Shown here piece after piece: positions 31,155 through 40,118 of a DNA stretch of 64,000 nucleotides. The notes under the pieces were generated by a model that saw only the letters and a list, made by a program, of their open reading frames with translations, did no database searches and was not told the DNA's origin. Every line of letters starts with the position of its first letter. Positions within the stretch are counted from its first letter, which is position 1. A program made the position numbers and the translations under genes. The stretch covers positions 1 through 64,000 of the forward strand of contig NZ_BOOH01000004.1 in assembly GCF_016863135.1 (NCBI RefSeq), written 5' to 3'. The DNA comes from Planobispora longispora (GTDB lineage: Bacteria; Actinomycetota; Actinomycetes; Streptosporangiales; Streptosporangiaceae).

Positions 31155-31183
31155 GTGACACCTTGCACTGTCGTGACTAGATT
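31155..31183 (+). promoter_or_regulatory. Promoter of the lipoprotein gene, leaderless
   Basis: -35 GTGACA (31155-31160), 17-bp spacer, -10 TAGATT (31178-31183). The predicted start falls at or next to ATG 31192. Confidence 0.6.
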
Positions 31184-31191
31184 TGATCTTT

Positions 31192-31767
31192 ATGTCGCGC
31201 CTTGCCGCATCAGCCGGGACGGCCCTGCTCCTCGCCGCGACGCTCGGCGCCTGCTCCGGCGGCGCCGCGGATCCCGAGCCCACGGCGACCCCCACGCCGC
31301 TGTACGACCTGGCGCCCCGGCACGTGCGGGACTTCGAAGTGCCGGTCACCGCCGCCCCCGTCACCGTGGGCAAACTCAAGATTACCGCGATCGGGCTGCG
31401 CACCGGTTTCTGCTGCGTCGTCGGGACGCACGCCGAGTGGCCCGCCAAGGGCCAGTACGTCTTCGTGCGCGTCCAGCTCCACAACACCGACCGGGACCGG
31501 CAGAAGTTCGAAGGGCTCGAACAGCTTCTGATCACCCAGGACGGCCGGAGCCACAAGGTCGACATCACCGCCATGAACATCAGGCGCCAGGACTACCGGC
31601 TCACCCTGGGCGCCGGCAACATCCTGGAAACCGACCTCATCTACGACGTCCCCAAGGACGCCAAGGTCAAGGCCATCCGCTTCACCGCCAAGGTGACCAC
31701 CGCCATCGGCGGCATCAACGTGGAGACCCAGCAGAAGGAGGTCCCCCTGCCGCCCACCTCCCGGTGA
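31192..31767 (+). CDS. Secreted lipoprotein, DUF4352-like
   Basis: The 191-residue lipoprotein has a short hydrophobic signal and lipobox LGAC (Cys about 21), a Thr/Pro linker, then an immunoglobulin-like beta domain (VTVGKLKITAIGLR, YVFVRVQLHNTDRDRQ, LIYDVPKDAKVKAIRF) typical of DUF4352 proteins. ATG 31192 is preferred over TTG 31183, which lies in the -10 box. It diverges from the amino-acid transporter; a functional link is not evident. Confidence 0.8.
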   Translation: MSRLAASAGTALLLAATLGACSGGAADPEPTATPTPLYDLAPRHVRDFEVPVTAAPVTVGKLKITAIGLRTGFCCVVGTHAEWPAKGQYVFVRVQLHNTDRDRQKFEGLEQLLITQDGRSHKVDITAMNIRRQDYRLTLGAGNILETDLIYDVPKDAKVKAIRFTAKVTTAIGGINVETQQKEVPLPPTSR

Positions 31768-31835
31768 GTCTCCCCCGGGCGCGTGGGAAGGTCTCGCCCC
31801 AGCCGGGAGGATCCGGAGCCGTGCGCCTTTGCGTG

Positions 31836-34697
31836 TCATCGCCCGGCGACGAGGACACGGACCTCTTCGGCCTCGGGAACGCCGAGATCCGTCAACTCCG
31901 TCAGAGCCTCCTCCCAGCACCGCCGCGCCGACTCGGCGTCACCCGCGCTCCGGTAGAGACGTCCCAGCAGCCGCAGAGCGCGGCCCCTGCCGTAACGGTC
32001 GGAGGTCTCGCCGAAGATGCCGACCGCCCGCGTCACCGGGGCGATCCCGCCCACGGCGTCGTTCCCCGCGAGACGCGTCTCCCCGATCTCGCAGAGGAGA
32101 TTCGCCACACGGGTCACGTACCCGATGCGCTCGGCGATCTCGAGGGCGCCCGTGAGGGCCTCGAGCGACTCGCCGAAACGACCGGCCGCCCGATGGGTGG
32201 TGGCCAGGTCGTCCAAGGCGTCTATCTGGCCGGGGTTGTCGCCGAGTTCCCGGCACAGCTTCACCGACGCCGCGTTGCACGCCTGCGCATCGTCATAGCG
32301 TCCCGCCTCGCGGTGGACGGCCGCGAGGTTGGCCAGGGCGTACCCCTGTGCCAGCCGGTCGCCGGCCTGCTCGGCGGCGGTCAGAGCGATCCCGTAGTGG
32401 TGGGCGGCTTCATCCGTGGATCCCATCAAGTGGTGGGCGACGCCCAGGTTGATGTGCCCCCGGACCTCCCCTCCGATGTCCCCGATCTCCTGGCGGACCT
32501 TCAAGCAGTTCTGGGCGTACGCCAGGGCAGCGGGGAGATCTCCGCGCTCCCTCCTCAGCTTGCCCAGTTCGTCCAGGGTGTCCGCCACATGGGCCGGGTT
32601 TCCCCGCCTCCTCGCGGCCGACAGCACCGACTCGTTGACACGGACCCATTCCTCCGTGGACCCGCGGAACCGGAACAGCCAGGTCAGTGCCCGCACCGTT
32701 GCGACGGCCGCTTCTTCGCACTCCGGTGACCGCAGGCCGGCGCGGATCGCCGCCAGCAGGTTCGGGCGCTCGGCGTCGAACCACGTGAGGGCCTCCTGCG
32801 CTCCGGCGAAAGGATGAGAGGGGGAGGACGCCTCGGATGACCTTTCCGTCAGCACCCGCACCGCGTGTCCGGCCAGGGCGCGGTACGCGTCGAGCAGCCG
32901 GTTCACGGCGCCGGAGAGCTCGTCCGGTGAATCGATCCCGGCCCGCTGGGCGGCGTAGAGCCGGACGAGGTCGTGCATCCGGTACCTGCCCGGCCGGTAC
33001 GGCTCGAGAAGCTGCGTCCGGACGAGATCGAACAGCGCCGTCGCCGCGGCGACGGGTGAGACGCCGAGAAGAGCGGCCGCGCTTTCCACTGTGATGTCCG
33101 GGCCGTCGATCAGGCCCAGGAGGCGGAACGCCCGGGCGGCTCGCGGCCGGTTCCCGAGCAGTTCGTAGCTCAGCTCGAAACTGGAGTTCACCGACAGGTC
33201 GTCCAGTTCGAGCTCCGCGAGGCGACGGCGGTGGTCCGCGAGGCGCTCGGCGAGCATCGTGAGGGACGAGCCCATCAGACTCTCGGCACGGGCTCCCGCG
33301 ATCCGCAACGCGAGCGGGAGGTGACCGCAGAGCCGGGACACCTCGGCCGCCGTCTCCGCGTCGGGCCGCTCGTCACGCCCGCCGACGATTCTGCCGAGGA
33401 ATTCGACCGCCTCGTCCTCGGCGAACATCCCCAGCCGGATCCGCCGCCCGACGGGCAGCGTCGCCAGGGAGTCCCTGCTGGTGATGACCGTGGCGCAGGC
33501 CGGGCCCGTCGCCAGCAGGGGCCTCACCTGGGAGACGTCGGCGGCGTTGTCCAGCACCACCAGCACCCGCCGGCGCGACAGGACGCTGCGGTAGAGGGCG
33601 ATCCGTTCCGTCTCGGAGGAGGGCGGCGGGCCGGTGGAACCGAGCGCGCGCAGGAACCCGGCGAGCACGTCGGCCGGCCGCTCGGACGCGCGCTGGACGC
33701 CTCCGAGGTCGACGTGGAGCTGGCCGTCCGGGTACCGATCGCGCAGCCGGTGGGCGACGTGTACGGCGAGCGCCGTCTTCCCCACTCCCGCCGGACCGGC
33801 GATCAGCATGACGGGGGACTCTTCGGCATCGGCCGCCGCGACCAGTTCGCCCACTTCCCGGGACCGGCCGGTGAAGTCGGCTATGCCGGCGGGCAGCTGC
33901 GCGGGGACCGGCCTTTCCTCCGCCCCGTCGGTGGGTGACCCGTCCGGCGGCCGGGTCACCGCCCCTTCGAGGATCTCCCGGTGCAGCTGTTGCAGCTCCG
34001 CCCCCGGTTCCATGCCGAGTTCCTCGACCAGGCAGCGCCGGGCCCGCGCGTAGGCGGCCGCGGCGTCCCCCCTGCGCCCGGCCCGGCGCAGCGCCATCAC
34101 CAGGGAACCCCACAGGGACTCGGAGAGGGGGTACTGACGCACGAGGGATTCCAGCTCCGCCACCAGTTCGCCGTCGCGGCCGAGGGCCAGCTCACCGCGG
34201 ACGCATCGCTCCAGGGCCGCCAGCCGCATCGAGTCGTACCGGGCCCGTTCGTCGGCGACGCTCCGCACGTCGATGCCGGCCAGCAGTTCCCCGCGCCACT
34301 CGCGCAGGGCAGCCCGCAGACGCGGGACCGCCTGACACGGATCGCGGATGTCGGCGGCCGCGGAGACCGCCCGCTCGAACCGTTCGACGTCCCGGCTCCC
34401 GGCCGCGACCCTCAGGCGGTACCCGTCCCCGTCCCTCCGCAACGCCACGCCCTCGCCTCCGGCGAGTTCCTTGCGGAGCCGGTAGACGTAGGCCTGCAGG
34501 CTCGACCGGGCCGCGGCGGGCGGGCTCCCGTTCCACAGCTCGTCGATCAGCCGTTCCTCGGTGATCACCTGGTTGGCGTCCAGGAGCAGCAGGGCCAGCA
34601 GGACTCTCTGTTTCGGAGCGGTGATCCGGATCTGCCGGCCGTTCTCGTGGATTTCCAGCGGACCAAGCATCCGGAAGTCCACCGAGCCCCCCGTCAC
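31836..34697 (-). CDS. AfsR-type SARP regulator with NB-ARC and TPR domains
   Basis: The 953-residue regulator has an OmpR-like winged helix (about 5-98: MLGPLEIHENGRQIRI), the BTAD domain (about 105-245), an NB-ARC NTPase with Walker A GPAGVGKTAL (301-310) and Walker B VLVVLDN near 385, and C-terminal TPR repeats (about 690-930, e.g. GHINLGVAHHLMG). This is the AfsR domain order; such proteins integrate signals and activate SARP genes. The start used is GTG 34697; GTG 34682 (VDFRMLG) would match SARP starts better. It diverges from a small SARP gene, whose promoter it may control (inference). Confidence 0.92.
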   Translation of the reverse strand: MTGGSVDFRMLGPLEIHENGRQIRITAPKQRVLLALLLLDANQVITEERLIDELWNGSPPAAARSSLQAYVYRLRKELAGGEGVALRRDGDGYRLRVAAGSRDVERFERAVSAAADIRDPCQAVPRLRAALREWRGELLAGIDVRSVADERARYDSMRLAALERCVRGELALGRDGELVAELESLVRQYPLSESLWGSLVMALRRAGRRGDAAAAYARARRCLVEELGMEPGAELQQLHREILEGAVTRPPDGSPTDGAEERPVPAQLPAGIADFTGRSREVGELVAAADAEESPVMLIAGPAGVGKTALAVHVAHRLRDRYPDGQLHVDLGGVQRASERPADVLAGFLRALGSTGPPPSSETERIALYRSVLSRRRVLVVLDNAADVSQVRPLLATGPACATVITSRDSLATLPVGRRIRLGMFAEDEAVEFLGRIVGGRDERPDAETAAEVSRLCGHLPLALRIAGARAESLMGSSLTMLAERLADHRRRLAELELDDLSVNSSFELSYELLGNRPRAARAFRLLGLIDGPDITVESAAALLGVSPVAAATALFDLVRTQLLEPYRPGRYRMHDLVRLYAAQRAGIDSPDELSGAVNRLLDAYRALAGHAVRVLTERSSEASSPSHPFAGAQEALTWFDAERPNLLAAIRAGLRSPECEEAAVATVRALTWLFRFRGSTEEWVRVNESVLSAARRRGNPAHVADTLDELGKLRRERGDLPAALAYAQNCLKVRQEIGDIGGEVRGHINLGVAHHLMGSTDEAAHHYGIALTAAEQAGDRLAQGYALANLAAVHREAGRYDDAQACNAASVKLCRELGDNPGQIDALDDLATTHRAAGRFGESLEALTGALEIAERIGYVTRVANLLCEIGETRLAGNDAVGGIAPVTRAVGIFGETSDRYGRGRALRLLGRLYRSAGDAESARRCWEEALTELTDLGVPEAEEVRVLVAGR

Positions 34698-34792
34698 TCA
34701 TCCCGCGGGCGAACCCCGCATCCGGCCACCGATCCATTCGAATGCCAGCATCCCGTCATCCGAATGGAGGCAGGACGACACGGAAAAACATT

Positions 34793-34808
34793 TCATGATT
34801 GATCATGA
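34793..34808. promoter_or_regulatory. 16-bp inverted repeat, possible operator
   Basis: TCATGAT and ATCATGA flank TG, about 95 bp upstream of the AfsR-type start on one side and 190 bp upstream of the SARP start on the other. It is AT-rich against its surroundings. Confidence 0.4.
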
Positions 34809-34869
34809 CTCACAAGTCACCCTCCGATATGAAATGCCTCTTTCTTCATCCGAAGTCCGGGAACCTGGC

Positions 34870-34898
34870 GCCAGCGGTCCGCCAGCGGTCCGCCAGCG
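34870..34898 (+). promoter_or_regulatory. SARP-type operator upstream of the small SARP gene
   Basis: Three perfect heptamers GCCAGCG at 34870, 34881 and 34892 are separated by 4 bp (11-bp period). Exactly 8 bp after the last one is GATGAT (34907-34912), a plausible -10. SARPs are known to bind such heptameric direct repeats 8 bp upstream of the -10. Confidence 0.7.
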
Positions 34899-34995
34899 AC
34901 GACGGTGATGATGACGCCTGCCTGCGACCCGGCAGGTGATCGCGACCGGCGAACCCGGCCGCAGACCGGTTTCGAGAGCATCGACCGGAGGTCAT

Positions 34996-35988
34996 ATGGA
35001 ATTTCGCATTCTGGGTGCGCTGGAAATAGCGCACGCGAACAGGACCATCCCACTCGGCGGATCGCGGCGGCGGGCCCTGCTGGCCGCGCTCCTCCTGCGG
35101 GCGAACGAGGCGGTCAGCGTCGGTTATCTGGCCGAAGCGATCTGGGAACGGATCCCCGCGTCCGCGTGCTCCAACCTGCGCACCCATATCGCGGGGCTGC
35201 GTCACGCGCTCACCCCCGCGGGGGCGCGCCTGGTGACGGAGCCCTCGGGCTACCGCCTGAGCGTCGGAGACGGCGAGCTGGACCTCCTCCGATTCGAGGA
35301 GGCGGCCGCGCGGGGCGCCGAGCTGATGGGCAGGGGCGAGATCGACGCGGCCGCCGACCATATCCACGCGGCACTGCGCATCTGGCGTGGCACACCCCTC
35401 CAAGGGCTGCCGCTCGGGCCGTTGCTGCAGGCGGAGGTGGCCCGGCTGGAGGAGCGGCGGCTCCGGGTCGTCGAACAGTGGCTCGCCGTACGGCGCGCGT
35501 GCGGCGCCCATCACGACGCCGTCGGCGAATTGCGCCGCCTCGTGGCAGAGCATCCTCTCCGGGAGAGCCTGTGGTCGCACCTGATGGCGACCCTCCACGA
35601 ATCCGGGCGTACGGCCGAGGCCCTGCAGGCGTACCAGGAGGCGCGGAGGCTGCTGCGGGAGCAGTTGGGCATCGATCCCGGCCCCGAGCTGCAGAGGGCC
35701 CACCAGCGGATCCTGCGGGGACAGACGGTCCCGCAGGCACCGAAGATCGCACAGCCCCGGGCGCTCCGCCGCGAGACGACCCCCGGCGGGACGCCGGCGC
35801 GGTCCCCGGCGGAATCCGCCGTACCGCGGGAAGGGCCGCCGTCGCTGGTCACGCTGCTGCGCGTCCAGAACACCGCCCTGCTCGAGCAGTGCGCCCGGCT
35901 CACGGCGGCGAACGAGCGCCTGACCTCACGCGTGGCGGAACTTGAGGGGCGACCGGCCCATCCGCGCAACCGGATGGGCGTCGGCTGA
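34996..35988 (+). CDS. Small SARP transcriptional activator
   Basis: The 330-residue SARP has a winged-helix DNA-binding domain (about 1-90: FRILGALEIAHANRTIPLGG) and BTAD (about 98-240, ending RLLREQLGIDPGPELQRAHQ), then a linker and a C-terminal predicted coiled coil (about 288-320) not usual in minimal SARPs. ATG 34996 has GGAGG 4 nt upstream; upstream in-frame codons lack a ribosome site. It immediately precedes the peptide/export genes, and SARP-like repeats lie before both this gene and the peptide gene, so it is the likely local activator. Confidence 0.92.
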   Translation: MEFRILGALEIAHANRTIPLGGSRRRALLAALLLRANEAVSVGYLAEAIWERIPASACSNLRTHIAGLRHALTPAGARLVTEPSGYRLSVGDGELDLLRFEEAAARGAELMGRGEIDAAADHIHAALRIWRGTPLQGLPLGPLLQAEVARLEERRLRVVEQWLAVRRACGAHHDAVGELRRLVAEHPLRESLWSHLMATLHESGRTAEALQAYQEARRLLREQLGIDPGPELQRAHQRILRGQTVPQAPKIAQPRALRRETTPGGTPARSPAESAVPREGPPSLVTLLRVQNTALLEQCARLTAANERLTSRVAELEGRPAHPRNRMGVG

Positions 35989-36067
35989 CGCGCACCGGAG
36001 GAACCCGGTCTTCCGGGGAGATCGGGAAACCCCCGGAAAAAACCGGCTCTCCCGGTCACGGCCCGCG

Positions 36068-36096
36068 CTGTGCCCGCCGTGTGCGCCGCCTGTGCG
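36068..36096 (+). promoter_or_regulatory. SARP-type operator upstream of the precursor peptide
   Basis: Heptamers CTGTGCC, GTGTGCG and CTGTGCG begin at 36068, 36079 and 36090 (11-bp period, 4-bp spacers; TGTGC invariant). A weak -10 candidate (CATCCT at 36107, or GACATC exactly 8 bp downstream) follows. The gene start is 36165. Confidence 0.65.
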
Positions 36097-36164
36097 GGCG
36101 AGAGGACATCCTGACGCCGTGTCCGGCTCTCCGAGGCCGGCTTCCAACGGAAGGGAAGTGAGTG

Positions 36165-36329
36165 ATGCTCCGTACCGCCGAGAGGATCGGGGACCGCCTG
36201 CTGTCGATGGTGGTGCCGCGCGCCGAGGCGAAGGCGTACTGGTGCCTCCACTGCACGCTCGCGTGGTCGCAGCGCTGCTACAACACCCCCAGCGGCACCT
36301 ACTGCACCTACCAGTGCATGTCCTGCTGA
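36165..36329 (+). CDS. Six-cysteine precursor peptide (candidate RiPP/bacteriocin)
   Basis: The 54-residue peptide starts at ATG 36165, 6 nt after a GGAAGGGAAG purine tract. Residues 1-24 form a charged leader with a mildly hydrophobic LLSMVVP segment but no Sec-type hydrophobic core, ending A-K-A at 22-24. The next 30 residues contain all six Cys (27, 30, 38, 47, 51, 54; spacing CX2C, X7, C, X8, C, X3, C, X2, C) plus several Tyr/Trp. Six Cys allow three disulfides. Genes for a thioredoxin-like protein, ABC exporter, MauE-like protein and S26 peptidase follow. A-K-A followed by Tyr25 is the inferred cleavage site. No homologue name comes to mind; activity is unknown. Confidence 0.75.
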   Translation: MLRTAERIGDRLLSMVVPRAEAKAYWCLHCTLAWSQRCYNTPSGTYCTYQCMSC

Positions 36330-36344
36330 TCTGAGATGACACGC

Positions 36345-36413
36345 CGGCTCAGCGCGGAGTGACTCCCATCAGCGAACCGGAGACTCCTGGCGGCCGTTCA
36401 CCGCGCTGAGCCG
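36345..36413 (+). terminator. Attenuator-like hairpin after the precursor gene
   Basis: Perfect 13-bp inverted repeat CGGCTCAGCGCGG/CCGCGCTGAGCCG enclosing 43 nt, between the precursor and the export genes. Partial termination here would make peptide mRNA more abundant than exporter mRNA, as is common for such precursors (inference). Confidence 0.6.
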
Positions 36414-36457
36414 CTTCTCCTCGTCAGAGATTCCCCGGGGTCGAAAGAAGGTTGTCC

Positions 36458-37018
36458 GTGCCGTATCTCGTTGCCGCCGTGGTCTTCGTCGGAGCCCTCG
36501 GCCTGCTCAATCTCCTGCTGGGTGTCGCGGTCATGGCCAGGCTCCGTGAGCACGCCCAGCAGATCGCCAAGCTGGGAGACCCCGCCAGACGGCCCGGCAC
36601 GGTCTCCGCGGGAGACTCCGTCGAGGCCTTCTCCGCTGTCACGACGTCGGGCGAACCGGTGGCCAGGGAACGGCTCGCGGACGGGACCCTGGTGGCGTTC
36701 TTCTCGCCCGGCTGCCCTTCGTGCGTCGAGCAGGCGGCCGAACTCGTCAGGCACGCCCCGGACTGGCCCGGCGGGCGGGACGCCGTCCTGTCCGTCGTCA
36801 TAGCGGATCCCGGTCAGGACGTCTCGGCACTGGTGGGCGAGCTCGAGCCGGTCTCCAAAGTGGTGGTCGAGCGCAACGGCGGCCCCCTCATGGCCGCCTT
36901 CCGGGTGGACTCCATCCCCGCGATGTGCGTGGTCGACGGCTTCGGCGTGGTCCTCGCCAGCGGCGGCAGGATGGAGCAGGTGCTCGTCACCCAGGTCACC
37001 CAGGTCACCCGGGCATGA
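36458..37018 (+). CDS. Membrane-anchored thioredoxin-like protein (TlpA/MauD type)
   Basis: The 186-residue protein has one N-terminal membrane helix (about 4-24), then a thioredoxin-like fold with FFSPGCPSC (Cys86 and Cys89), and the cis-Pro-type segment SIPAMCVVDG near residue 155. The fold faces outward if the helix is a signal anchor. MauD/TlpA proteins exchange disulfides in secreted substrates. GTG 36458 is preferred over TTG 36452 because GAAGG (36447-36451) is 6 nt away. Its stop overlaps the ABC gene start as ATGA. Confidence 0.88.
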   Translation: MPYLVAAVVFVGALGLLNLLLGVAVMARLREHAQQIAKLGDPARRPGTVSAGDSVEAFSAVTTSGEPVARERLADGTLVAFFSPGCPSCVEQAAELVRHAPDWPGGRDAVLSVVIADPGQDVSALVGELEPVSKVVVERNGGPLMAAFRVDSIPAMCVVDGFGVVLASGGRMEQVLVTQVTQVTRA

Positions 37019-38910
37019 ACGGCCGCGCGTCCCGCCTGGCCGCAGCGGCCAGGGCCGTCTCGCTGGGGTGGCGCGCCGCCCCTCGTCTCCTGGCGGCTTA
37101 CACGGCCTTCACCGTGGTCTCGGCCGGGCTTCCGGTGCTGGTCGCCTGGCTGACCAAGGTCGTACTGGACGGCCTGGTCCGGGGGGCGGCGGAGGACGTC
37201 CTCCTCGGGCTGGCCGCCGCGCTGGCCTGCGCCGGACTCCTGTTCTCCATAGCCCAGCACGCGGCGGAGTTCCTGCGCGCCGAGGCGCACCGGCGCATCG
37301 GGCTGGCCAGCAAGAACCTCCTCTTCCGCGCGGTGGAGCGATTCGTCGGTCTCGCCCCGTTCGAGCGGCCCGAGTTCCACGACAGGCTCCGGCTCGCCGA
37401 GGAGGCCGGCGCGACCTCACCCGGGAACGTCGTCAACGGGCTGCTCCAGGGGGCGCGGGGAGTCCTGGTGCTCGCCGGTTTCGCCGGCTCCCTGGTCTTC
37501 ATCAACCCGCTGCTGGCGCTGATCGTCGCCGTTTCGGCCCTTCCGGCGCTGGTCGCCGAGAACTCGCTGGCCCGCGAGAAGGTCGGGATGATGGCCAGGA
37601 TCAGCCCGATGATGCGGCGCGAGATGTTCTTCAGCCAGCTGCTGACCGACAGCCAGTCGGCCAAGGAGGCCAGGCTCTTCGGCTTCTCCGCCTTCCTTCG
37701 CGGGCGCATATCGGCCGAGCGGACGGCCGCCAACGAAGCCGAGCACCGGCTGGACCGCAAGCAGTTCACCACGCAGAGCGGGCTGTCGTTCGTCTCGGCG
37801 GGAGTCGCCGGGCTGGGCCTCGTCTGGGCCGTGCTCGCCGCCCGGAGCGGCGCCCTGTCGCTCGGCGACGTGTCGATGCTGGTGGCGTCCCTGGCCGGGA
37901 CCCAGACCGCCCTGTCGCAGCTCGTCCAGCACTACGCCGCCACGCGGCAGGCGCTGCTGCTGTTCACCCACTACCTGGAGATCGTCGAGGCCGAGGCCGA
38001 CCTGCCGGTCCCGGCGCCCGCCCGGCAGGCCCCCCCTCTGCGAAGCGGCATCGAACTGCGCGACGTGTGGTTCCGCTACTCCGACGAGCATGACTGGATC
38101 CTGCGCGGAGTGGACCTCTTCATCCCCCGCGGCTCGGCCCTGGCGCTGGTCGGCCGCAACGGCGCGGGCAAGAGCACGCTGGTCAAGCTCCTGTGCCGGT
38201 TCTACGACCCCACCCGCGGGGCGATCCTGTGGGACGGCGTCGACCTGCGCACCATGGACCCGCACTCCCTGCGGGCCCGCATCTCCGCCGTCTTCCAGGA
38301 CTTCATGCAGTACGACATGACCGCCGCCGAGAACATCGGCCTGGGGGACGTCGACGCGCTCGGCGACCGGGAGGCGCTGACCCGGGCGGCGGGCATCGCG
38401 GGGATCCACCGGACCCTCGCGGCCCTTCCGGGCGGGTACGACACCATGCTGAGCCGGTCGTTCGCCGCCGAGCCGGCATCGCCCCCGCCCGCCGGGGAGA
38501 CCGGCGGCGATCAGACCGGCGAGCCCTTCTCCCCGGCCTCCGGCTTCACCCTCTCCACCGGGCAGTGGCAGCGCCTGGCCGTCGCCCGCGCGTTCCTCCG
38601 CGGGCGACGCGATCTGATGATCCTCGACGAACCCAGTTCGGGCCTGGACGCCGCCGCCGAGTACCGGCTCCACTCTGTCCTGAGGCGCCACCGGTCGGGC
38701 CGGACCAGTGTGCTGATCTCGCACCGCATGAACACGCTGCGGGACGCCGACCTCATCGTGGTCCTGGTGGACGGGCGCGTCACCGAGCGGGGAAGCCACA
38801 CCGACCTCATGGCGTCGGCGGGCGAGTACGCCCGGCTCTTCTCCCTGCAGGCCGAGGGATACACCGAGCCGGCCGCCAGTCTCGGCATGAGCGACACCGG
38901 GTCGCGTTGA
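37015..38910 (+). CDS. ABC exporter (fused TM and ATPase)
   Basis: The 631-residue half-transporter has six membrane helices (about 20-330) and a nucleotide-binding domain with Walker A GRNGAGKSTL (about 380-389), signature LSTGQ (about 513, in place of LSGGQ) and Walker B LMILDEPSSGLD (about 533). A Pro/Gly/Glu-rich insertion (about 483-508) sits just before the signature. It lacks the N-terminal C39 peptidase domain that processes double-glycine leaders, which fits a separate protease in the operon. The likely cargo is the six-Cys peptide. Confidence 0.92.
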   Translation: MNGRASRLAAAARAVSLGWRAAPRLLAAYTAFTVVSAGLPVLVAWLTKVVLDGLVRGAAEDVLLGLAAALACAGLLFSIAQHAAEFLRAEAHRRIGLASKNLLFRAVERFVGLAPFERPEFHDRLRLAEEAGATSPGNVVNGLLQGARGVLVLAGFAGSLVFINPLLALIVAVSALPALVAENSLAREKVGMMARISPMMRREMFFSQLLTDSQSAKEARLFGFSAFLRGRISAERTAANEAEHRLDRKQFTTQSGLSFVSAGVAGLGLVWAVLAARSGALSLGDVSMLVASLAGTQTALSQLVQHYAATRQALLLFTHYLEIVEAEADLPVPAPARQAPPLRSGIELRDVWFRYSDEHDWILRGVDLFIPRGSALALVGRNGAGKSTLVKLLCRFYDPTRGAILWDGVDLRTMDPHSLRARISAVFQDFMQYDMTAAENIGLGDVDALGDREALTRAAGIAGIHRTLAALPGGYDTMLSRSFAAEPASPPPAGETGGDQTGEPFSPASGFTLSTGQWQRLAVARAFLRGRRDLMILDEPSSGLDAAAEYRLHSVLRRHRSGRTSVLISHRMNTLRDADLIVVLVDGRVTERGSHTDLMASAGEYARLFSLQAEGYTEPAASLGMSDTGSR

Positions 38911-38920
38911 GGAGATGATC

Positions 38921-39463
38921 ATGCACTACCTGGAGCTGTCGTGCCGGGCGCTTCTGGCCCTCGTCTTCACCGTGTCGGCGGCGGGCAAGGCCAGGAACAC
39001 GGCCTCGTGGCGGTCCTTCACCCGATCCCTGACCGACCTCGGGATCGCCGCCCGGTGGGCGCCTCCCGCGGCCGTGACCGTCACCGCCGCCGAGGCTCTG
39101 ACCGCGGCGTCACTGGTCTGGGCACCCTCCGCGCGGATCGGCTACATGCTCGCGGCGGGCATGTTGCTGATCTTCACCACGGTGATCTGGCGCACCGTCC
39201 GGCGTGAGGCGACCGTACGGTGCGCCTGCTTCGGACCGTCCGGGGCGCCGATGAGCCGCCGCCACCTGTTCCGCAACGGCCTGCTCCTGGCCGTCACCGC
39301 AGGCGGCTGGGCGCTCGCCCGTCCCGGCGGGGCCCATGAGGCCGCCGGCGTGGCCATCGCCCTGGGCGCCGCGTTCACCGCCGGGATGCTCGTCGTCCGT
39401 TTCGACGACCTGGCGGCCCTCGTCGCCGGACCCCCGCGAACGCGCCGGGAGAGCGCGCGGTGA
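38921..39463 (+). CDS. MauE/DoxX-type redox membrane protein
   Basis: The 180-residue protein has four to five membrane helices and a conserved-looking Cys pair C101-A-C103-F, matching MauE/DoxX-like proteins that accompany MauD thioredoxins and pass electrons or maintain disulfides across the membrane. The start at ATG 38921 is supported by GAGGAG 6 nt upstream; ATG 38915 abuts the ribosome site. It is placed between the ABC exporter (10-bp gap) and the S26 peptidase gene (7-bp gap), in one operon. Confidence 0.88.
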   Translation: MHYLELSCRALLALVFTVSAAGKARNTASWRSFTRSLTDLGIAARWAPPAAVTVTAAEALTAASLVWAPSARIGYMLAAGMLLIFTTVIWRTVRREATVRCACFGPSGAPMSRRHLFRNGLLLAVTAGGWALARPGGAHEAAGVAIALGAAFTAGMLVVRFDDLAALVAGPPRTRRESAR

Positions 39464-39470
39464 ACCGGAC

Positions 39471-40013
39471 ATGCTCGGTGTGATCCTCGCCGGCGCGCTG
39501 TCGGCGGCCGGTCTCCTGTTCGTGTGCGCGCTCGTCCCGGTGCTGACCGGCCGGGTGTTCACGGTGAACGTGAACGGCCGGAGCATGGAGCCGACGCTCC
39601 GGCCGGGCCAGAGAGTGCTCATCCGGCGCCGTCCGGGCCGAGGGCTCCGGCCGGGAGCCCTGGTGCTGCTGCGGGGCCCCGGCACCGCCGCAGGCCCCGC
39701 CCCGGGAAACGCGCCTCACGGCGCGCCGGACCTGCCGGGTACGGCGCCGCTCCTCATCAAGAGGGTGATCGCCGTACCCGGTGATCCGGTGCCCGCGGAG
39801 TTCGAACGCAGCACGGGGACGCCCGCGGGGTCACCCGTGCCGGAAGGAAAGATCATCATCCGGGGCGACAATCCCCGCTACAGCGTGGATTCCCTCATGA
39901 CCGGGTTCTACGGAATCGACATGGTCGTCGGCACGGCCCTGCGCCCCGCGGCCGTGTTCCGCGGCCTCTTCCGGCCGGTCATCCGCCGGGACCCGTCCGG
40001 CGCCGGCCGATGA
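39471..40013 (+). CDS. S26 signal peptidase
   Basis: The 180-residue type I signal peptidase has one membrane anchor (about 5-26), catalytic Ser38 in NGRSMEPTL and catalytic Lys97 in LLIKRVIAVPGD, plus GDNPRYSVDS near 140. It is a Ser-Lys dyad enzyme with a single TM, as in chromosomal SipW/LepB-like enzymes. Being the last gene of the peptide operon, it is inferred to cut the precursor after A-K-A once the exporter has delivered it. No Sec signal is evident in that precursor, which makes the pairing unusual. Confidence 0.92.
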   Translation: MLGVILAGALSAAGLLFVCALVPVLTGRVFTVNVNGRSMEPTLRPGQRVLIRRRPGRGLRPGALVLLRGPGTAAGPAPGNAPHGAPDLPGTAPLLIKRVIAVPGDPVPAEFERSTGTPAGSPVPEGKIIIRGDNPRYSVDSLMTGFYGIDMVVGTALRPAAVFRGLFRPVIRRDPSGAGR

Positions 40014-40118
40014 AGCGGACCGCTCGGCGCCGGCGGCGGTGATCCGTCGCCGGGCCGGTGCGTCCGTGGCGCGGGCGGGAGAGCCGGCGGGGCCGGTTCC
40101 TCTCCCACCCGGCCCGGA

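Follow-up and report, generated by a model that had tools for sequence, protein, structure and literature searches.

A gene cluster of Planobispora longispora that probably makes a secreted disulfide-rich miniprotein, and its counterparts with a shared leader and variable cysteine-rich cores

The first 64,000 nucleotides of contig NZ_BOOH01000004.1 of Planobispora longispora (the window, that is, the whole stretch that was analysed) contain a cluster of six genes, all on the + strand and spanning 34996-40013, which encode a regulator, a small cysteine-rich peptide, and the proteins that probably export, oxidize, and cleave this peptide. Genes were called by translation and by Pfam and family searches of each gene. 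Every component listed in an earlier note on this DNA was found, although the stretch was said to begin at 34870, whereas the first gene, encoding a small SARP regulator (BTAD 5e-44, Trans_reg_C 5e-7), actually begins at 34996 and ends at 35988. The precursor gene (36165-36329, +) is translated into 54 residues with six Cys, and consists of a leader recognized by a leader profile, MLRTAERIGDRLLSMVVPRAEAKA (36165-36236), which ends in A-x-A and has no Sec-like hydrophobic core, and a predicted 30-residue core with six Cys, YWCLHCTLAWSQRCYNTPSGTYCTYQCMSC (36237-36329, including the stop codon), more specifically with a CxxC at its start and a cluster of Cys at its end. A perfect 13-bp inverted repeat (36345-36357 and 36401-36413, +) separates the precursor gene from that of a membrane-anchored thioredoxin-like protein of the TlpA/MauD type (36458-37018, +), which bears a CPSC motif, a single N-terminal hydrophobic stretch, and a Redoxin match of 3e-4 that falls below the Pfam cut-off. 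The last three genes encode an ATP-binding cassette (ABC) exporter with transmembrane and ATPase parts (37015-38910, +; ABC_tran 2e-26), for which Pfam gave no C39 peptidase match, a MauE-family membrane redox protein with a CxCFG motif (38915-39463, +; Pfam MauE, PF07291, 1.4e-25, 90.5 bits against a cut-off of 27), and an S26 signal peptidase, the proposed leader peptidase (39471-40013, +; Peptidase_S26 1.1e-14, above the cut-off). No enzyme modifying ribosomally synthesized and post-translationally modified peptides (RiPPs) was found among the cluster genes and the ten flanking genes tested, including the class-defining enzymes of lanthipeptide, YcaO, radical-SAM, and lasso systems.

The association of these genes recurs well beyond the window. 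Among 80 loci from named genomes, chosen by exporter similarity only, 72 have a precursor, as do 51 of the 53 loci with the full set of thioredoxin, MauE, and S26 genes; the two others are a locus near a contig end (L093) and one in a metagenome assembly with a fragmentary MauE frame (L138). The enzyme homologues are thus nearly always accompanied by a cysteine-rich small open reading frame (ORF), as the reading in the earlier note requires, and the peptide region is conserved between relatives in its leader, across 130 precursors. The leader profile scores leaders blind to the core. At scores of 12 and 15 it returned 133 and 128 hits in the real sequence, compared with three and one in a control of 2.4 Mb of reversed sequence. 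When 200 genomes of the family were searched for the 54-residue peptide, the hits were weak, most of the best ones being in clusters of the same kind. The precursor profile, applied across the phylum with only 16 candidates scored per genome, found almost nothing, which is not evidence of absence. When the Planobispora assembly was searched with the window exporter alone, two paralogues (54% and 53% identical) were found on other contigs. Both belong to clusters like that of the window, which differ in gene order and orientation and have their own cysteine-rich peptides: L009 encodes two and L010 one, each with 8 Cys. Pfam matched S26 seven times in this genome; each of the three clusters has one S26 gene, and two strong matches adjoin each other on another contig. 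Because both paralogous clusters and 72 of the 80 exporter-selected loci bring a cysteine-rich peptide, the window cluster goes far beyond a chance assembly.

The 130 precursors share a leader with the consensus ..LGDRLLxxLVPxxxAxA and differ in their cores, mean pairwise identity falling from 43% for the leaders to 27% for the cores. Ala is found at position -3 in 125 precursors and at -1 in 129, an invariance that is partly built in, because the training set of the first profile had been selected with a pattern that required P, AxA, and four or more Cys. The ungapped P-x3-AxA spacing was not demanded by that first search, and neither it nor the Cys parity described below was built in. The maximal 10-residue Kyte-Doolittle mean of the leaders has a median of 1.09 (1.32 in the window) and exceeds 2.0 in 1.5% of them, and the leaders are more amphipathic than shuffled leaders. 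Judged by this hydrophobicity, which is too weak, the leader is not a Sec signal; nor did we meet a GG-type end among these leaders, which end in A-x-A.

The variable cores that follow, of about 30-45 residues, are characterized by even numbers of Cys. In 128 of the 130 cores the count is 4, 6, 8, or 10, and 69 of the 71 core families have even counts only, whereas of the 730 other small ORFs of these loci that contain four or more Cys, 196 (27%) have an odd count. Worked by hand from these counts, such an excess would arise by chance with a probability of about 1e-7. The Cys are arranged in 22 different orders, and Cys is the last residue in 81 of the 130 precursors; Ser, Thr, Tyr, and Trp are abundant. 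The order C-C-CC-C-C, which in knottins (inhibitor cystine knots) goes with knotted 1-4, 2-5, and 3-6 bonds, occurs in 24 cores, the window core not being one of them. NCBIfam gave no match for 40 precursors, Pfam only isolated hits, each to a single member and none stronger than 0.02, and a sequence search of the PDB no credible match. One locus (L053, 8579-14465) encodes at least seven precursors with the same type of leader and different 6-Cys cores. Two precursors from the genus of the window (L170, 10287-10586; L171, 2952-3251) have long Pro/Gly-rich 8-Cys cores ending in PPPTCPPFMMC, unlike the others.

The residues on which the partner proteins would depend are also conserved: the CxxC of the thioredoxin-like protein is invariant in 20 homologues, the catalytic Ser38 (GxSM) and Lys97 (KR) of the S26 peptidase are invariant in 19, and the CxCFG motif of MauE is near-invariant in 75. 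Perfect arms of at least 10 bp occur within 150 nt downstream of 56% of the 130 precursors, compared to 4.7% of composition-matched stretches. The spacer between precursor and thioredoxin genes is, as a whole, not more stable than its shuffles, and the repeat therefore probably forms a local hairpin, for processing or attenuation of the transcript; such a stem-loop likely favors the precursor over the enzymes. Rfam gave no match. Neighbors within 7 kb were clustered at 115 loci: apart from the precursors, the exporter, the redox and peptidase proteins, and regulators, no family, and hence no further enzyme, recurs widely there, and neither a metal-uptake nor an immunity gene recurs.

All of these features make it very probable that the cluster produces a secreted disulfide-rich miniprotein by export, oxidation, and S26 cleavage, the even Cys counts, the AxA motif, and the invariant CxxC and Ser/Lys residues supporting this proposal of the earlier note as the best reading. 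In the pathway that we envisage, the SARP/AfsR pair would activate the cluster, and the stem-loop 3' of the precursor gene would raise the amount of precursor relative to the enzymes. The ABC exporter would recognize the amphipathic non-Sec leader and carry the reduced peptide over the membrane. Outside, judging by protein family, the tethered CxxC protein would form three disulfides from the six Cys by oxidation, and MauE would in turn re-oxidize the CxxC protein, with the division of labor proposed for MauD and MauE on the small subunit of methylamine dehydrogenase. The membrane-bound S26 peptidase would finally cut behind the AxA that ends the leader, and so liberate the 30-residue product. 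For the window core, the calculated monoisotopic mass is 3571.404 in the reduced form and 3565.358 with three disulfides ([M+3H]3+ 1189.460), a difference of 6.05 Da.

Several observations weigh against this pathway. The product, its disulfides, and the cleavage are predicted from sequence, and sequence does not distinguish an oxidizing from an isomerizing or a reducing thioredoxin. Two precursors have odd Cys counts, one with five Cys in Actinomadura syzygii (L141), alongside a six-Cys one, and one with three Cys in Fodinicola (L130), a poor match and possibly a frame error. AlphaFold models of two precursors are of low confidence (predicted local distance difference test scores of 64 and 55). 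Finally, a strong MauE match is absent at 24 of the 80 loci, indicating that MauE is not essential everywhere. Since a SARP gene, moreover, lies within 9 kb at only 27 of the 80, the common core of the system is limited to precursor, exporter, and S26 peptidase, usually with the thioredoxin-like protein. Control by a SARP is thus an optional and not a defining trait of the system. On the side of the pathway, two Actinomadura loci (L112 and L122, near 9500) have 4-Cys precursors and an exporter without thioredoxin or MauE, L112 having an S26 gene in addition, and this arrangement is possibly a minimal form.

Other chemistries can be conceived for the same genes. If the thioredoxin and MauE proteins kept the Cys reduced, the peptide could bind metal, as a metallophore or a store; the redox direction, as mentioned above, cannot be read from the sequence, and the Cys pairs of the window core, in the CxxC at its start and the cluster at its end, could ligate a metal. 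Nevertheless, 22 Cys orders under one leader are unlike a single metal site, even counts are what disulfides would lead one to expect, and metal-uptake genes are not recurrent neighbors of the clusters, which makes a metal-binding peptide very unlikely. Alternatively, the peptide could be a RiPP in which an enzyme from another part of the genome links the Cys to other residues, by thioethers or similar bonds, with an accessory part for the redox genes. The Ser, Thr, Tyr, and Trp of the cores would be usable for such cross-links, but thioethers would not need an even number of Cys, and no modifying enzyme recurs widely at the 115 loci or is encoded by the window genes tested, so that we regard this explanation as highly improbable. 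That the genes are juxtaposed by chance and the short ORF is noncoding might be suspected from its mere 54 codons and from the absence of an NCBIfam or credible Pfam family for it; the leader conserved in 130 precursors, the nearly empty reversed control, and the annotation of related ORFs as genes on Streptomyces plasmids contradict this, and comparison among relatives rules it out.

With regard to the role of the disulfide-bonded product, antagonism between bacteria is a guess that we would give an even chance, followed by signaling or development. A developmental signal or surface peptide would be compatible with the same chemistry, and the SARP/AfsR-type regulators beside many clusters and the lack of a recurring immunity gene point in that direction. 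A conserved signal would be expected to vary less, however, and the hypervariable cores, up to seven precursors per locus, plasmid carriage, and turnover at one site fit antagonism better, leaving this role possible but doubtful. The parts of the proposal backed by sequence data are the gene set, the leader with its AxA, the even Cys counts, the catalytic residues, the lack of another recurring enzyme, and the cluster turnover.

This turnover is observed at the chromosomal site of the window cluster, which lies in an island of about 8.3 kb (31768-40118) that two genomes of the same genus (L173 and L174) lack at this position, livF, a DUF4352 lipoprotein gene, and a solute-binding-protein gene being adjacent there. 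The island includes a divergent gene for an AfsR-type regulator with SARP, NB-ARC, and TPR parts (31836-34697, -; Pfam BTAD, NB-ARC, TPR), also absent from the empty sites. The ten flanking genes are mainly amino-acid transporter genes, with a thioesterase and the DUF4352 lipoprotein. Clusters occupy the same site in a third genome of the genus (L081), in Actinomadura litoris (L120), and in another member of the family (L049), the flanking genes being mostly 64-94% identical and the cluster enzymes about 33-55%, with cores unlike that of the window; in L049, the resident lipoprotein gene has gene sets on both its sides. With differing clusters flanking this fast-evolving lipoprotein gene, the interval from livF to the glutamate-type transporter genes is an apparent insertion hotspot. 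We considered the lipoprotein (31183-31767) as an immunity protein and rejected it: it accompanies four clusters at this site, yet stays where the cluster is absent. Related exporters are also found on 29 plasmid records, mostly from Streptomyces, and in the two records examined the precursors and the thioredoxin are annotated as hypothetical proteins.

The cluster recurs, in many variations, in soil actinobacteria. Precursors are present in more than 20 named actinobacterial genera; the well-studied Streptomyces clavuligerus has a cluster of this kind (L167) with two of them, annotated merely as hypothetical proteins. The cyanobacterium Komarekiella has an 8-Cys precursor (L158, 8910-9101) adjoining an exporter 39% identical to ours, and the system thus extends to a second phylum. 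In Myxococcus (L156, 9435-12294), the thioredoxin, exporter, and S26 genes stand in a row, and no precursor was recognized.

Comparison among loci establishes this gene logic, while the chemistry and the function assigned to it are predictions. We find it reasonably probable that these clusters form an undescribed and widespread class, in which actinobacteria and at least one cyanobacterium use one platform of leader, exporter, oxidation pair, and S26 peptidase to evolve and swap disulfide scaffolds, including the Cys order of venom knottins, in a manner reminiscent of cone snails. If true, this would allow many uncharacterized secreted miniproteins, perhaps a large and untapped reservoir of toxin-like molecules, to be recognized from a simple genetic signature. 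It would also give orphan MauE, TlpA-like, and S26 genes a role and open a bacterial way to peptides with several disulfides.

Some elements of this system are found in known ones. The maturation of methylamine dehydrogenase likewise involves a MauE-family membrane protein and MauD, but its substrate is an enzyme subunit, and it is not known to have a family of small precursors, an exporter of its own, or an S26 peptidase. MauE has been speculated to form the disulfides of the beta subunit, as told in the decRiPPter study (Kloosterman et al. 2020, PMC7794033). That study reported three mauE candidate RiPP families in Streptomyces, one of them with mauD, with precursors of at least eight Cys; as here, MauE, in one case with MauD, stands beside a cysteine-rich predicted precursor. 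In the part of the paper devoted to them, these families are a prediction only, and the logic of leader, S26 peptidase, and exporter is not described (PMC7794033). They are likely the present system, and S. viridosporus, a species named in that paper, has a cluster of the same kind (L131, 6-Cys core). The view that the class is uncharacterized stands insofar as the literature searched, which did not extend to subscription papers, yielded no characterized member, and has to be tempered since the combination of MauE and Cys was partly flagged by decRiPPter, as far as its account of the families goes (PMC7794033). In TMcin bacteriocins, a dedicated oxidoreductase, exporter, and leader peptidase make a disulfide-bonded bacteriocin (PMC13252029, 2026 preprint). 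These are also RiPPs with their own CxxC oxidoreductase for the disulfide, ABC exporter, and leader peptidase, but they have one disulfide, a transmembrane-helix product, an S2P-type intramembrane protease, a DsbA-like protein, and a two-protein exporter, and come from staphylococci. Actinodefensins and disulfide-bonded class II bacteriocins are likewise ribosomal, cysteine-rich, and secreted; nevertheless, the defensin-like CxxxC...CxC order is found in only 7 of the 130 cores, and the double-glycine leaders of class II bacteriocins, cut by C39 exporters, are absent here. By analogy, the conotoxins and other animal venom peptides, with a Sec-type signal and unrelated genes, also combine a conserved leader with a hypervariable core and many Cys orders.
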